A DNA stretch of 64,000 nt from Cloeon dipterum. Lineage: Eukaryota > Arthropoda > Insecta > Ephemeroptera > Baetidae. The stretch is from positions 3,462,501 through 3,526,500 of the forward strand of contig NC_088787.1 of assembly GCF_949628265.1 (NCBI RefSeq), given 5' to 3'. The notes beneath the pieces are model-generated. The model did not search any database and had not been told where the DNA came from. It saw nothing but the letters and a program-made list of their open reading frames with translations. Both the position numbers and the translations under genes were made by a program. Below, piece by piece: positions 1,084 through 28,036 of this stretch (position 1 is its first letter; each line of letters begins with the position of its first letter).

Positions 1084-4000
1084 TTACGGTTGCTCACATA
1101 TAAAGGCGTTAATGGAAGTTACTGCGGTAGGATCATTTTGTGTCTTGATGAATCCGTCGTAAAAGTCGAAATTGACAGTCTTCGACAACAACATTACAGA
1201 ATTTGCCTTGCCCGAAAAGTGAACGACGGAAGAGATGCACATCGAATTAAGCGAAAAGAATGGTTTGGTGCGACTTCCGCACCAAACTTCGTCAGTGAGG
1301 GAGTTGTTGACGGTGAGAATATCACCAAACATCAATTTGAGTGCGGAGTCTGCGAAAAATATATAAAAAATATCAGTGATCATCAATTTTAAAGTATTTT
1401 TGTTATTAAAAATAAATATTCTTTTACTGTTATTGAACGTGATGAAAGCCCATTGCAAGTCTTCAAGAGTTTGAGGTTCGAAAAGCCGCATTCCGAGTCC
1501 GCAACAGTGTTTGTACGCCAAAATTGGATTCTATGGAATTTACTCCGTCAGCAATAAATTGAAATTATAAACTCGAACGCTCACTACTCGTGAACCACTG
1601 TCGATATTTCGAACGTAGAATTTCTTGTTTTGATACGTTACCATCTGCCCATTGCCATCTTCGCCAAAAATTCAGAAAATAATTAAAAATGATATAAAAA
1701 AAACCTCTGCTCACCTAAACCATTATTGGCGCTCATTGCATCAATCGCAGTTTGCTATAAACTCGATGTATGTATTACATATAATTTTATTTCAATTCTT
1801 TGTAATTACGTTTATCTCGCAGGGAAACATATTCGAAAGCCAGCATGATCTGCGGATGGGAAGGCAAGGCACTGGAGGAGTAAACTACAAATCGCGACAT
1901 GAAATCGAAAAATGCTGCTTCTTAATTTTATAATTACCACCGTTGCGTTGCCAAAATTATTCGATACGATATCAGAGACCAAATTCGGCGTCTTCTCAAG
2001 GCCGCACTTGTACGTTTCGTAGGCAGTCACGCACTCGTCGTCAAAATCTGATTAAATTAAATGAAATATTCTGAAAAGATGACAAACTTTTTCCACTGCA
2101 TTCGTCAAAAGCATCAAATCCCTGTTCCATCTTGACAGGATCCTCTTGCGACGCGAATTCTATTTCCCGCAACATTGCTAAGCTATCCAAAGCTCCCAAA
2201 TTAAACTTAAAAAACACGGCGTAATAAATTAAAAATATAATTGATTATTTCACTGTACCAATCCGACTTCAATCCCGACGCATTTTAGAAAGCACTTATT
2301 TTGATGTAAAAATTCAAATTTTAATTAAATTAAAAAAAAAATACGCAAACCTTCAAATTCAAAGAGACGTTGGCCGTGAGAAACGCGCTGGTGTTCAGCA
2401 GCAGGTCAATTTCAGCTGCCACCAGGATTATTTATGAAAAACACCGCCTTTAAAGGTTAAAATACCGGGAGTGATGGCCCAAATGTCGGCGCACTCGGTC
2501 TGCATGGCCTTTTGGCTCGATGCCTTCTTCCGCACGTCGCACAAAAACGATTTCTTCTCAGCGCAGTCCGCAGTTGCCAGGAGCACGGATCTGTTTCTCA
2601 CTTCGAGGTAAACGCAGCCCAAACCCGCCTTCGGGTGTCCGGCCTTCCACCTGAGCTCAGGGTCGACGAATGCCCTGTTCAGCGAGCACCAGCGGAAGTT
2701 GGATGGACACCCGAGATCCGTCCCGGAGAGCCAGAAATCTCCCACGGTGTCCGGGAGGAATCCTTTGAAATAATTAATAACGAGGAGAGTTAAAATAAAT
2801 AAATTGGCGTAAAGACAGTCCTTGACGAAGTTTCTGAGCCCACCAATCGATTCCTGAGGTTCGAATTAGGTAAAGTAGATATTTTTTCGAACCAAAAAGT
2901 GAAGTGCGACGTAAGAACTTTTTCCCGCCAAAACATTTTATGAATGCGAAAATTGCGCTTGCGTCAGAGCTGGTTTTAGGACTTGCAGAGAGACCGCCTG
3001 TACTTCTTTGTCAGATCCAGTCAGCTCTCACGCATGCGCACTTCTCGCATTCATATTGTTTTGGCGGGAAAAAAGTTCGTAAGTGACGCTGCACTTCTTT
3101 AACGGGAAAAACATCCTCTATACCTAATTTGATCCTCAGGAATCGATTGGTGAGCTCAGAAACTTCGTCAAAGACGGTCTTTAATTGATTCAATTGATTC
3201 AATATACTGAAGGCGAGTTTTGAAAAGCAGCTCAATTTTCCGGCCGAGTCCAAAGACGCCAGAGTCAAGCCAACGTCGCAACAACGTTGCCAGGCTCCTG
3301 ACCAGTCCATCTAAAATATGTAAATTTAAATCGGGAAATTTTTGGAAACAGACGAATTTATTTACTGGAGCAGAGGTGTGGAACAAATAATTCCGGCCGC
3401 ATGAAGTAAACCAGTAACCAAACGTGGAAAAATCTGATTTTTGCCTTTTAATTCATGCGTTAAATCGAAAGAAAATCTACCAATCAGTTTATTTTCAGCG
3501 TCGAAACGGCTAGCCTTTTTGGTTTTGAAATAAATTAGTTTCTAGCATATCCCTATATAAATAAATTATCACATCTCGTTTGCAGAGTTGAGAAGGGCAC
3601 GAAGCGACGCACGGCTTTTCAGTCGTTATTATTGACGTCTGATTTTTTTAAATATTATTCTATAGTGCCTAAAACTAAATAAATTTAAATGCCTTGCAAG
3701 CGAAAATGTATTTGCTGTTGCAGTTTCTATCAGTCAAAATCGCGCCTGTGGAGTTGAAAACCAAGCGGAAGTGTGCACAGCTCTCGTTTCCTCCGCGGTT
3801 GTCGGGCTGGCCTGGTTCCCACGCGACGCCGGGGCTGAATATTGTCGGTCCCGTCGGCTCACACCAAGACCACTGTCCTGCTGGTGCCCCCTTGCACGTG
3901 CCGGACGTCCAGTAATTGAAATTCCCCTTCCAGTCGGCTGAAAGGGGATTATTTAAGTGAAATTTCTTAACCTTGAAATCCAGGTTAACTAATATTGTAG

Positions 4001-6465
4001 ACGACAGTCAGGTTTGTCAAGCCGAGTTGCTCGGAAGCATTGTCCAAGTTTAGTGCCTCCATCCCCAGGGTGCAGCACTGACGAAAGCTGGACATCCAAG
4101 TCATCTGACGCAGTATAAAAAGCGATTAAGGACATAAAATTGAATTTTTAAAAGTTAAAACCGGTTTGTTTCCCAATAAATAGGTGTAGTTTCCGATGTC
4201 AATCCACAAACCGTAGGAAGTTTTATCTAAATAAATTATCATAGGAATTTAAATCCTATAAATCTTGGCGTTTTCTACTTATCAATTTCCCAGATGCATC
4301 AAATAAAGAGTCCTGCATTTCATTTGGAAAGCAGAGTAAAATGAGAAACATTGTCAAAATAATGCAGACGTTTTTGGTGCAGGATTTGGCGCTGGGACAG
4401 TCAACGTTGGTCTGGCAAACGAAGGGCAGGGCATCGGCGCAGTTTTTCAGCACCATCCCCATCTGTAGGGGGTTGGCGGACGTGACGACGGCCAGACAGC
4501 GCTCCAAGGCTGAAGGCATGGCGTTGGTCGACAGCCAGAATTTTTCCGAAGAAGTTAGAGAAGTAGAAACGCTGAATCCCGTCGAGCACCACGCGAATTT
4601 CTTTTCGGCGTCGCAATTTTCATCCTCGTTTGAGCCACCCGTCCAAAAAGTGCCGACTGATTTAAGTTTAATTAAATAGTTGATAGAAATGAGTGAGAGA
4701 GACCTTTTAAACTGGCCAGACAGTCGAGTTCCTCGAGCGAAGTGACGGCCAAAAGTGCCATGCTCAGCAACGCCTTGCACCGCATTCCAGCCTCGTTTCT
4801 CGAAACCTTGACGTTTTTATGACTAATCAAAATTTAAAGACCGTCTTCAACGAGATTTCTGAGCACAAATATCGATTCTTGAGGGTCGAATTAGGTAAAG
4901 TTCATATTTTTTCCGTAAAAGTCAATGCAGCGCGAAGTGCGAACCTTTTTTCCCGCCAAAACAATATGAATGTGAGAGTTGCGCATGCGTCAGAGCTGGC
5001 TGGATGTGACAAAGAATTCATTTTCTCTCTGCAAGTGCTCAAATTAGCTCTGACGCATGCGCACTTCTCGCATTTACGTTCATATTGTTTTGGCGGGAAA
5101 AAAGTTCTTACGTCGCGCTTGACTTTTTTGTCGGAATAAACATCCTTTTTACCTAATTCGACCCTCAGGAATCGATTGGTGTGCTCAGAAATTTCGTCAA
5201 AGACACTCTTAAATTAAGGGTAATTTTTCATACAGCTACGGTTGAAACGTAGTATTGCCTGTTGCACATTTTGGCCGTTAGCAATGAACCATCCGCTATT
5301 TTTGAGAAAGAAAAATAATGGTTAATTTATTTTCTCCTAAAATGCTCTTTTAAGAAAATAATTTTTACACTGGGATGGCTTTGGTGTTGCGTCATTCTAA
5401 TTAACGACGAATTAATTAATAGAATTAAATTTAGGATGATTTTACCCCCAGAAAATTGTTAAAATCCTTGCACCCCATGCGGCACGGAACAGGCTGAGCA
5501 AAGGTTTAATTTTAATTTATAAAGCTATTAATCATTTAACTGTTGTGGAAGATGTCGATTTTGCGGTCGTGGTTGTCATTAATTCCGAATTAGTCAATAT
5601 CGTTACAGATCCTTTAAGGGTTGTCGCCAATTGTTTGGGGGTACTTTCTGTCACTTTATTAGACGTGCTTATCGCTTCTTTAAAGATTGTTGTCTGCAAA
5701 GGGGTTGCTGGCGTCGACGCCGACGAAATAATTGCCGTCAAAATAGTATCAAACGCAGAAGTTGTCGCTGCTCCTCCTGCACCTGTGCGGACGTCAGTTG
5801 TTGCTATTTCGCTCGAAATGACGTCTCTTGCTTCCGTTCCTTCCGGTCGGCGGCTAGTTTCCGCTCCAGCATCTGCGTCAGAGGCTTCGTTTCATTTTTA
5901 ATGAGAAAGGTTCTCACCAATTTTATTCACCTGCCTCTGTACCAACTTCCGGCACAGTCGGCGGTTCGTCATTGTTGCTGACGTCAGAGGCAGCTGTGCT
6001 TCCTTTCACTGCGCCCGTTTTGCTCGCAAGCTGAATCAAAGTTGACGAAATCGGACCATCGGCCTGGTCCAACTAAAATAAAATAATAATTCATTCTCTG
6101 CATGATATTTCTAAGAATTAAATACATTTTTTGTTCTTTTCTTTGAAGTTGCGTTGAATTTCGGCATGCATTTTTTGAAACCGCAGCACTTGATGATGTG
6201 TTTTCGACGGAGCTTCTTTGGAACGTGCAGTTTAATCGGAGCTGGAAATTTTAACAGCTTAAAAATTAATAAAAATACCTCGACACTATACCAGAGTTTG
6301 CTCCTGCAAGCCTGATTTTCAAAGCATGTTTCCTGTCCTGCAGTGAAACAAAATTATTAATTAAAAACTATAAGAGTATACAAAATTTACCCGTCGCTCT
6401 TGAATTTTCGTCTCTCCAATCCACACCAGCAGCAATAAAATGAGGCTGCAGTAGCACACGTTCAT
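1084..6465 (-). CDS. secreted multi-domain C-type lectin / OBP-like chimeric protein
   Basis: Multi-exon minus-strand gene of roughly 1,000 residues. The ATG at 6465 opens a signal peptide (MNVCYCSLILLLLVWIG), with exon 1 at 6465-6391. Exons near 6332-6279, 6241-6127, 6072-5931 and 5872-5541 encode a Ser/Thr/Ala-rich stalk. CTLD-1 uses 5493-5446, about 5302-5249, about 4800-4704 and 4656-4370 (GTFWTGGS, WCSTG, NCADALPFVC). CTLD-2 uses 4312-4279, 4226-4162, 4104-3990 and 3937-3693 (YGLWIDIG, FRQCCTLGM, FNYWTSGTC, WEPGQPDN). CTLD-3 uses 3638-3573, 3514-3481, 3433-3366, 3310-3208 and 2762-2466 (GYWFTSCGRNYLF, WQRCCDVGL, DFWLSGTDLG). An OBP-like part follows at 2415-2351, 2205-2097, 2047-about 1938 and 1884-1810. 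CTLD-4 uses about 1650-1588, 1530-1428 and 1349-1084 (YKHCCGLGM, VWCGS, FICEQP). Phases agree at every junction from 3638 to 1084 and from 4704 to 3675. A secreted recognition protein is inferred from the domains. Exons 2, 3 and 7 and the CTLD-2/CTLD-3 link are least certain; two adjacent genes remain possible. Confidence 0.72.
1810..2510 (-). other. odorant-binding-protein-like module between CTLD-3 and CTLD-4
   Basis: Directly after the last cysteine motif of CTLD-3 (FLCDVRKK) the reading continues through ECADIWAITPG, EIDLLLNTSAF, FNLGALDSLAMLREIEF, DAFDEC and then DDECVTAYETYKCGLEK. The spacing C-V-T-A-Y-E-T-Y-K-C is the CX8C signature of the fifth and sixth cysteines of insect PBP/GOBP proteins, and the helix before it has OBP-like length. 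The cysteines expected in the third helix are not visible at the exon joint, so the fold may be degenerate. A proline/cysteine linker (PCLPIRRSCWLSNMFPC) follows before CTLD-4. Confidence 0.5.
2811..3182. mobile_element. non-autonomous inverted-repeat element (MITE), copy 1
   Basis: About 370 bp with long imperfect terminal inverted repeats. The left end runs from AAAGACAGTCCTTGACGAAG, and the right end near 3182 is its reverse complement. The arms also match at the GAATCGATT-type and TTTCCCGCC-type blocks. There is no transposase ORF. It sits in an intron of the lectin-domain gene between the exons at 3310-3208 and 2762-2466. The target-site duplication is unclear (perhaps TTAA or TA). Confidence 0.75.
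4834..5214. mobile_element. non-autonomous inverted-repeat element (MITE), copy 2
   Basis: Second member of the same family as the element at 2811-3182, also intronic in the lectin-domain gene. The ends are TTTAAAGACCGTCTTCAACG and its complement at 5214. The interior keeps the paired GCGCATGCG and TTTCCCGCCAAAA blocks in inverted orientation. It has no coding capacity. Divergence from copy 1 is moderate, so both are old but recognisable. Confidence 0.75.
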
Positions 6466-20262: not shown

Positions 20263-21478
20263 ATGGAAGCAGAGAGAAAATGCGTTAAATGCTTGAAAGG
20301 AGTGAAGATAGTCGGTGACGAATGCGCTCAATGTATACTGTAAGGAATCGTCCAGGGCCTTTATCAGGTATATGAACTTCTGATATTATATCAATGTTTC
20401 AGGGATCGTGAGTTGAATTTAGAGAATTCACCACCTTCAAATGAACAGAATTCTGACCAAACGGACGACCAGCTGTCGAAGAATGAAACTTTGGCACCAG
20501 TGAACGCTGCTGCCGATGAGCCGCAAGTCGAACAGACCGCAAGACCGGTATTCGAACAAGAATCAACTTCAGTTAATACTTCTAACTTTGGTGTTTGTCC
20601 TGCTTCAGGTGAGCTCATTCGAATGATTTTATTGAATTCTTTTTATATGAATAAAAAAATATTTTAGAGGGCATTTGTGAGAGCCAATGTGTTGCGATTC
20701 AAGATCAAATTACGGATTCGACAGTTGAAACTGTAGTCTCAGTCAGCAGGAGTGAACCTGGTGAGAAATATTTTCGTGATATTCGTCAGTAAAAAAAGAA
20801 AACTTCTGTTCAATTGATATGTAGATGACAAAAAATTAATAACACATTTTCAAAGCATGTTTTTTGTTTTCCAAAATTTAATTTCCAGAACCTTCTACAA
20901 GTGGATATTCAGGCCAAAAGCGGAAGAGGAAACCGAATACCGATTCAGCGGACGCGAAGAAACACTCAAGAGCCAAGAAGAGGAAAGCTAATGAGAATCA
21001 GAGTAAAAAAAGGTATAAGGAGGGCGTCTGCCAGGTGTGCAATGACAGTAAGAAACATGGCAACATTTATACTCACTTGAATGTTCACGAGGGTCAAGCA
21101 CAACAATCGGAAGACCAAGACGAAAAAAACTATACACACAAGATTGAAAATAAAAACGGAGTAAAAACATTGTTACGTGTACCAAAGACCGATGGGCACA
21201 TGAAAAAAGCGGTGAGAATTTTCAAGTGTGATATTTGTCCACATTACTCTTCATCCAGAAAGGATTGTTTAGAAGATCACATCGTACGCAAGCATTTTCC
21301 AAAAACAATCAAATGCGATTATTGTCCAAAGTTATTTGCGACAGAGAAGAATCTGAAGGAACACATATCAAAAGGTCATGCCATTACGTGGGAATGCCAC
21401 GTGTGCAATCAAAAAATGACGACGAATAAAAAGATATCTCACAAACATCCAGTTAAGCCGAATTGGAGAAAAATTTAA
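20263..21478 (+). CDS. A1: small CxxC/C2H2 zinc-finger protein of tandem family A
   Basis: Four exons: 20263-20339, 20403-20608, 20668-20760, 20889-21478 (321 residues). Exon 1 is a mini-module, CVKCLKGVKIVGDECAQC. Exons 2-3 are acidic, Ser/Thr/Gln-rich linker. Exon 4 begins with a bipartite basic stretch (GQKRKRKP, AKKRKANENQSKKR) typical of a nuclear localisation signal. It then carries fingers CQVCNDSKKHGNIYTHLNVH, FKCDICPHYSSSRKDC..DHIVRKH, IKCDYCPKLFATEKNLKEH and a divergent WECHVCNQKM. Relative to A2-A4 the exon-2 linker lacks about 22 codons (the RANEN..PKI segment). All splice sites are canonical and the frame is open. A nuclear DNA-binding role is inferred. Confidence 0.8.
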
Positions 21479-26347: not shown

Positions 26348-28036
26348 ATGAGAAACGTTAGAGTCATGAATCCTAGCTTGTTTTCCATCATTTTGCTCCA
26401 CTTTTCTTTGACAACCGCCGTAAACTTCACGCAAGTCTTCGAGTGGCCCGATGGAATGGACTACGAGTGGCCTTCCGAGGAGAGCAGGACAAACGCCTTG
26501 GAAGACGGAACTTTCAATCCAGAGAAAATTGCACCTCGTTACATGGCTGTGTACAGAACAAGGATTTTCCTAAGCCTTGAGCAATATGAAAATATTCCAG
26601 TGACTCTGGTGTCCCTGCCGACGAGCAACGCATCCTCTGCGTCCCCGAAGCTCACGCCGTTCCCATCGTGGGAGATGCATGTAAGCGTGAAAAGAAAATA
26701 GTATCAATCAAACCATATGCAATTAGCGCAAAACGTTAATTTGTAGTCGAAATTTGTAGATTTGTATTCTATTTTTATGAAATGGTCAGCCATTTTATTC
26801 TAATTTTCATATATTTCGAAAATTCCGTGTTTTCTCTAGCAAGATTAACAGAGTGCCAAAAGAGATATTCCGATGAAGATTTGTTAAAAACACTTGAATA
26901 TATTTTTTTGCAGGGAAAGGGTGACTGCGACAAAATTGAAGAAGCAAGAGGGCTGCAAGTTGACTCTGTTGGCAGGCTGTGGGTTCTGGACAGCGGTAGT
27001 GACAAATGCAATTCCAAACTATGGACCATCGACTTGTCCAACAATCACACTGTACTCGAACATCGATTTTCTTTCCGCGATTATATTATGCACGACTTAG
27101 GGCTCGACGAAACGCCCAATGGAACCGTGGCATTAATCTCATTTTATGGTGCAGATAAATACAGTATCGCCTTTAGTTTGGAAAGAAATCGCTCTAGGAT
27201 TTTGTCGCTGGAATATAGGTTCTTTTCCTTTGCCCTGTTCCCTAAGGTGGAATCGAGAAAGCTCTACGTTAGCCATTGGGAAACTAAAGTAATGTTTTCA
27301 TTTCATCCCATTGCCGAATTTGGCAATGCAACTTACATTTTTTATCATCCATTTATCGGAAAATGGAGTGCAATACCATATAGAATGCTAATTGACAGTC
27401 ACGGCACCATGTATGCCGCCTTTAAGTGGAAAAACTACATACGCTCTTGGAACACATCCCAGCTATTTGAGGAGCAACCTTTTTATGAGGTACGTCACCA
27501 ATTTAAAAATAAGAAATTTGCGATTCTATTATTGATTAATTATTTAACTCTATTTTAAATTGAAGAAGTTGTGGGTGGAGTCTTATCTCTTAAATGTTCA
27601 CCTTTGGTCTTAGCTATATAGATTGACAACAGCCCGTTACACTTTTTAGGTTGAAAATCTGGGTACTTGTTTTCCATTTACCTTTGCCTTGGACTCGTCG
27701 GGAACCTTTTGGATGACTGAGCTTAATAATACAGCAAGTAAGCCAACGTACAGACTACTTAAGGCTGCCACAACTGAGGTGCAGGAAAGCAACCTCCTGA
27801 CCGAAAATAGGATAATTATCATCATTCTGATCTGCGGCATCGTGTTGTTCAGTTTAATCATTCTTTGGCTCGTCCTGACACTGAAGAGAAAACAAAACAC
27901 TACTGAGGACCAGGAAATGTCCGTTTTATGTTACAACAATGATGACATAAGCCCCGCGGAAGTGCTGAACGAGGATGAAGTGACGCAGCCACGCCCCTTT
28001 CATCTGGTCTCTACGATCAGCCCGCGATCCGAATGA
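26348..28036 (+). CDS. yellow/major-royal-jelly-like protein 1, membrane-anchored
   Basis: Three coding exons, 26348-26680, 26914-27489 and 27650-28036, all phase 0, giving 431 residues. A signal peptide (SLFSIILLHFSLTTA) precedes the family N-terminus VNFTQVFEW. Family motifs follow: PRYMAVYRTRIFLSL, PFPSWEMH, GLQVDSVGRLWVLDSG, YIMHDLGLDETPNG and FALDSSGTFWMTEL. A C-terminal hydrophobic helix (IIIIILICGIVLFSLIILWL) is followed by a basic stop-transfer KRKQ and a cytoplasmic tail of about 45 residues. Yellow/MRJP proteins are usually secreted beta-propellers, some with dopachrome-related activity; the anchor here suggests a cell-surface form. It lies inside the zinc-finger array between B1 and B2. 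Biochemical activity cannot be read from the sequence. Confidence 0.85.

Follow-up and report, generated by a model that had tools for sequence, protein, structure and literature searches.

Odorant-binding proteins (OBPs) and C-type lectin domains (CTLDs) are both well-known folds. Classic OBPs of the PBP/GOBP type, among them LUSH, honeybee ASP5 and the mosquito OBPs, are small free proteins, and multi-CTLD proteins such as the mannose receptor, DEC-205 and the PLA2 receptor, as well as secreted insect C-type lectins such as the mosGCTLs, carry CTLDs in series. OBP folds also occur within longer secreted proteins, namely the D7 salivary proteins and double-domain OBPs, where OBP is joined to OBP (PMC3285218). 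For the mayfly Cloeon dipterum, a published 180-Mb assembly yielded 191 OBP genes, 167 of them with complete models, a record count for which the largest OBP repertoire was claimed; by expression, most of these OBPs belong to nymphal or pre-nymphal clusters, gill expression is recorded for 82 of the 167, and gill cell clusters are also where three tested OBPs were located, a neural marker being reported as well (PMC7250882). The main text of that paper treats the genes as OBPs and does not contain the word 'lectin'. Another mayfly, Parafronurus youi, is listed with only 10 OBPs of 135–252 aa (PMC13205551). What appears to be new at the locus described here is the occurrence of the OBP and lectin folds, each familiar separately, in one protein. 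Among the open PMC papers listed, judged mostly by title and start of the abstract, no lectin-OBP fusion was found.

We analyzed a stretch of 64,000 nucleotides of C. dipterum DNA, referred to as the window. On its minus strand, from 6465 to 1084, 28 in-phase exons give a protein model of 1053 residues. Exon boundaries were placed by eye, the least certain splice choices being those of the Ser/Thr-rich exons 4–5; a purpose-written spliced aligner that was fed the 1053-aa protein recovered the identical 28 exons. The introns are GT-AG in 26 of 27 cases and GC-AG in one, after exon 14 (donor at 3692). This donor is likewise GC in L040 (C2:4503000-4509800), a whole-gene duplicate on the opposite strand about 1 Mb away that is 95.5% identical, and GT in another relative, L041. 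From the N-terminus, the model comprises a signal-peptide-like start, a basic segment with IIKCCG, a Ser/Thr-rich stretch (Ser/Thr content of 33% over residues 127–256), CTLD1–3, the OBP module, a linker and CTLD4. By eye, no C-terminal anchor was noticed in the window model, and Rfam gave no match within the window. The features of the gene are as follows:

6391–6465, minus strand: exon 1, with the start codon and a hydrophobic N-terminus that resembles a signal peptide (MNVCYCSLILLLLVWIGETK...), judged by eye and the same in L040
5446–6337, minus strand: exons 2–6, basic segment with an IIKCCGFKKC motif followed by the Ser/Thr-rich stretch; counterparts aligned in L040 and L041
4370–5396, minus strand: exons 7–10, CTLD1 and the linker after it; Lectin_C 17.9 bits, under the cut-off of 22.6
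3693–4312, minus strand: exons 11–14, CTLD2 with a QPD motif; Lectin_C 26.4 bits, over the cut-off
2536–3638, minus strand: exons 15–18 and the start of exon 19, linker and CTLD3; Lectin_C 19.6 bits, under the cut-off
2466–2762, minus strand: exon 19 (junction exon), end of CTLD3 and first OBP cysteine C1 (ECADIWAITP) in a single open frame
2351–2415, minus strand: exon 20, OBP interval between C1 and C2, from the splice model
2259–2294, minus strand: exon 21, OBP C2-x3-C3 (CFLKC), CFLKCVGIEVGL, from the splice model and the cysteine pattern
2088–2205, minus strand: exon 22, OBP to C4 (DECSGK), from the splice model
1938–2047, minus strand: exon 23, OBP C5-x8-C6 (CVTAYETYKC) and C-terminal segment, from the splice model and genome matches
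1810–1884, minus strand: exon 24, linker with a cysteine, leading to CTLD4, from the splice model
1084–1754, minus strand: exons 25–28, CTLD4 and stop codon, recognized by eye from the exon pattern and a CC..GM.L motif

The first-pass annotation had placed an OBP-like module inside a multi-CTLD protein at this locus. The motifs on which it relied (CCDVGL...FLCDVR, ECADIWAITP, DEC, CVTAYETYKC, and CCGLGM...FICEQP with the stop) are all found on the minus strand, in this order and in compatible intron phases, and the architecture is borne out by the 28-exon model, by the same plan in L040 and L041, and by paired exons genome-wide. Its named OBP exons are all there; the exon at 2294–2259 with C2-x3-C3 had been missed, and with it the module has all six OBP cysteines.

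Against the PBP_GOBP family (PF01395; cut-off 22 bits), the full model scored 32.6 bits and the module alone 37 bits (E 4.1e-9), and each of 15 copies matched separately (15/15, E up to 0.01). The six cysteines of the window module are spaced 30-3-42-8-8, including C2-x3-C3 and C5-x8-C6, a six-cysteine pattern that is kept in 31 of 31 copies. A profile of 15 OBP copies run against PDB gave 26 matches with E no higher than 0.01, the best at 2.1e-10. Of these, 23 carry names of odorant- or pheromone-binding proteins, and the other three, which have a mosquito gene id alone, are presumably OBPs as well. In its cysteine spacing and PBP_GOBP score the module is thus like the classic OBPs, and solved OBPs align over almost all of it. 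It differs from them in its setting, since it is embedded in about 1050 aa of lectin: the model of 1053 aa is far from the ~120–170 aa of a small secreted stand-alone OBP and, unlike the free OBPs, the module has by eye no visible signal peptide of its own. It differs from D7 and double-domain OBPs in that the OBP is joined to lectins. Taken together, these matches support a true OBP ancestry of the module, in agreement with the PBP/GOBP relationship proposed initially. Chance similarity was considered and ruled out by Pfam, the PDB profile, the cysteine pattern and the paralogues.

An HMM search of the spliced protein against both families, which had been put forward with the first-pass annotation, gave a match to one of them: the Pfam scan of the full model at E 0.1 returned PBP_GOBP and no other domain, Lectin_C included. 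Of the individual domains only CTLD2 exceeds the Lectin_C cut-off, with CTLD1 and CTLD3 below it, and CTLD4 of the window gives no Pfam Lectin_C match. A CTLD profile built from 13 copies (11 of CTLD3 and two of CTLD2), 12 of which match Lectin_C at E up to 1, produced 138 PDB matches at E up to 0.1. Serial-CTLD receptors stood at the top (best 4.8e-21), and the best 60 of the 138 matches are almost all named C-type lectins or CTLD receptors. In its serial CTLDs and PDB profile matches the protein resembles the mannose receptor, DEC-205, the PLA2 receptor and the mosGCTLs, from which it is set apart by the OBP between CTLD3 and CTLD4. QPD marks galactose-type sites; in CTLD2 it is present in 24 of 26 covered copies, with five further copies lacking coverage there. 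In CTLD3, 27 of 31 copies read HPx, and no canonical sugar motif was seen by eye in CTLD1 or CTLD4. A canonical-looking sugar motif appears to be limited to the QPD of CTLD2. Since the WND-like site of this domain reads TD (LTDRNC), calcium binding by CTLD2 may be impaired.

The join between the two families needs no splicing, because one exon, 2762–2466, stays open from the last part of CTLD3 (FLCDVRKK) through to OBP cysteine C1 (TECADIW). Downstream, the reading frame continues in phase from exon 23 (C5-x8-C6) into exon 24 and CTLD4. The junction exon occurs in the genome at no fewer than 97 places at E ≤2.2e-26 without a stop, 96 of the 97 extending beyond C1. Tandem arrays are frequent among the chimera copies, and such arrays could let a multi-lectin gene and a separate OBP gene next to it be read as one. 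This reading is highly improbable: CTLD3 and C1 share an exon that is stop-free at all of these places, no signal-peptide start was seen in the CTLD3-OBP junction sequences that were read by eye, intron phases agree throughout, and CTLD4 comes after the OBP in L040 and L041 as well. We rejected it on the exon common to CTLD3 and OBP. Some more divergent members have an intron in this region. In L043 and L045, a phase-0 intron lies exactly at the CTLD3/OBP boundary, and L044 has a nearby intron in phase 2; no intron at the boundary was found among L010–L042. We read the boundary intron of L043 and L045 as a probable old fusion seam that was later lost in the main group. The OBP introns at residues 781, 793 and 832–833 are common to L042–L045 as well, which favors a single origin.

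The 28-exon plan is repeated outside the window. L040 carries all 28 exons, with 1009 of 1056 aligned positions identical to the window model, and L041 also has 28 exons with 536 of 1052 positions identical (51%). All 27 intron phases of L041 are the same and 24 of its 27 intron positions lie within one residue of those of the window model, the recovery of its first exon being unreliable. Apart from the window gene, near-complete alignment to the model was obtained for these two alone and, because they were aligned to the by-eye window model, they are not independent gene predictions; the recurrence of the structure in both indicates that it is not due to chance. Five introns in or after the OBP have the same positions and phases in 32 of 32 loci (L010–L041, some of them repeats of one gene). 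The alignment of L045 extends into CTLD4, and frame lists read by eye show CTLD4-like open frames after the OBP in L042, L044, L047 and L048. The possibility of pseudogenes was rejected, as the aligned paths of L010–L048 are free of stops and L049 has one; the aligner tends to bypass stops, which it penalizes heavily.

To count related genes, we searched a genome of 190.1 Mb in 10 contigs, five of which measure 33–43 Mb. The PBP_GOBP profile run directly against the genome matched four places with E of 10 or less, a single one of which had E <0.001; this search is almost blind because the OBP exons are short, and queries made from exons and modules replaced it for the genome counts. With the OBP C5-C6 exon (exon 23) as query, 134 places were found at E up to 10. 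The junction exon gave at least 150 matches (the best 150 of 368 candidates scored), which we split into 97 strong and 53 weak ones where the E values jump from 2.2e-26 to 7.5e-18. Among the matches listed, 125 of the 134 OBP exons are preceded on the same strand by a lectin exon at a distance of 411–1552 bp (96 strong and 29 weak matches), nine lack a listed lectin partner, and no lectin exon of the opposite strand lies within 2.5 kb of any of the 134. Seen from the lectin side, and again among the matches listed, an OBP exon lies downstream of 96 of the 97 strong and 29 of the 53 weak junction exons, the other 24 weak ones having none. Queries from two divergent members added 30 places (E up to 0.01), seven of them with a listed lectin partner. 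Six fetched loci without a listed lectin partner all align as CTLD-OBP: L047, from the nine unpartnered exons; L049, L051 and L053, from the 23 unpartnered among the additional 30; and L050 and L052, whose OBP exons (E 0.011 and 0.019) fall outside the 30. This puts the number of chimera-compatible places at 125 or more, perhaps near 160, most of them judged by paired exon matches rather than by full gene models. The median spacing between neighbors is 6.6–8.7 kb on five contigs, and the window gene is 5.4 kb long. The single gene noted initially is accordingly one of many copies.

The size of this family is similarly extreme to that of the 191 published OBPs of the same species (PMC7250882), and many of the latter may be lectin-OBP chimeras. 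If many of them are proteins of about a thousand residues, both the claim of the largest repertoire and the odorant-binding reading of the gill expression would need restating, and large OBP families in such insects may need rereading. The low count in Parafronurus youi may mean that chimeras are limited to some mayflies, or they may have been missed there.

Constraint differs between the modules. Pairwise comparisons were based on 27 distinct close copies; L017, L018, L020, L021, L022 and L037 were omitted as same or near-identical genes, as were L042–L045 from all pairwise figures. Median identity is 67.6% for the OBP, 61.7% for CTLD3 and 55.8% for the post-OBP linker (351 pairs each), and 35.3% for CTLD4 (153 pairs). 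For CTLD1 and CTLD2, comparison is limited to the window, L040 and L041; between the window and L041, identity is 55% in CTLD1, 67% in CTLD2 and 69% in the OBP. For pairs with dS of 0.05–1.2, median dN/dS is 0.21 in the OBP (43 pairs), which is lower than in the four other stretches that were set against each other in this way, 0.25 in CTLD3 (47 pairs), 0.31 in the 8-residue junction (141 pairs), 0.41 in the post-OBP linker (85 pairs) and 0.60 in CTLD4 (just 18 pairs). The order is different between the window gene and L040, the two closest copies: there the OBP (dN/dS 0.34, seven changes) is less constrained than CTLD2 (0.06) and CTLD3 (0.09), and CTLD4 stands at 0.72. Distances in OBP and CTLD3 correlate (rho 0.66, 0 of 999 permutations), and those in CTLD4 do so weakly (0.18 with OBP, 0.16 with CTLD3). 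The general picture among the copies is one of constraint on OBP and CTLD3 and of rapid change in the C-terminal lectin. The fastest-changing part relative to L040 is exon 28, with pN/pS of 0.81 compared to 0.20 elsewhere (Fisher p 0.0014, the exon having been picked for this test after the data were seen). As dS is also higher in exon 28 (8.2 of 58 sites versus 44.0 of 656), exchange between copies is possible, and the divergence of CTLD4 could reflect either relaxed constraint or such exchange.

The similarity among OBP copies (median identity 67.6% over 351 pairs) does not point to diverse ligands and would suit an OBP that has no functional ligand pocket and only holds the lectin domains rigidly apart. 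However, it is not obvious why such a spacer should require a median dN/dS of 0.21 or cysteines kept in 31 of 31 copies and, although stability alone could explain both, we regard this role as unlikely. The reading we prefer, to which we assign a probability of roughly 60%, is a secreted lectin-OBP chimera, probably fused once and then multiplied, that acts as a glycan-anchored binder of small molecules. Probably in a single, ancient event, a classic six-cysteine OBP would have become fused downstream of the third CTLD of a multi-CTLD protein, and the fused gene would then have multiplied to well over a hundred loci. CTLD2 with its QPD motif would provide a constant sugar site that holds the protein on a sugar-bearing surface, for instance mucus, cuticle or a microbe, the conserved OBP a constant pocket that captures a hydrophobic ligand at that surface, and the fast-changing C-terminal lectin a target or address of its own for each copy. 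Secretion, sugar binding, ligand binding and this division of labor between the modules are predictions from the sequence.

Such chimeras would suit a role in water chemosensation, given the published OBP expression in gills and head, if those OBPs are the chimeras. More tentatively, well over a hundred secreted proteins might form a combinatorial receptor-like repertoire that reads glycan and small molecule together in water, for example on nymphal gills. Its members would have in common the sugar-binding lectin CTLD2 and the OBP pocket and would vary in the C-terminal lectin, and the record mayfly OBP expansion would not consist of free odorant carriers. The main rival to a chemosensory role is an immune one. 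Immune functions are known for secreted C-type lectins of insects, and a large tandem family whose C-terminal lectin changes fastest is also what might be seen in a pattern-recognition repertoire in which the lectins bind microbes, the OBP binds a microbial lipid, and the C-terminal lectin diversifies by host-microbe co-evolution. The published nymphal and gill expression of the OBPs fits chemosensation at least equally well (PMC7250882), and we consider the immune role possible though rather doubtful. With a glycan-anchored small-molecule binder as the preferred reading, the family offers a testable case of a chemosensory domain tied to glycan recognition in an early-branching winged aquatic insect.

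Two further loci of the same genome contain one of the two folds. An OBP-like exon (CFMEC...) followed by a C-x8-C frame lies on the reverse strand of L009 at about 1501–1671; no lectin exon was noticed in the 3.2 kb covered at this locus, and L009 is probably a stand-alone OBP. L046 (C2:956800-961800) is a three-CTLD relative in which no OBP was found in the 2.7 kb covered downstream, so that the OBP may either have been gained by one branch or lost at L046. Within the window, two introns of the chimera gene contain copies of a MITE-like palindromic element of about 380 bp (2810–3186 and 4834–5215). A scan for this element gave at least 82 matches (the best 40 of 1631 candidates scored), many of which represent both strands of one palindrome. 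A copy is also present in intron 18–19 of L040, which indicates that this insertion is older than the duplication that separated the window gene and L040. Elsewhere in the window, inspection by eye revealed a run of long C2H2 zinc-finger-like open frames at 20882–58954, mainly on the plus strand, and an open frame resembling a yellow/major-royal-jelly-type protein at 26740–27558.
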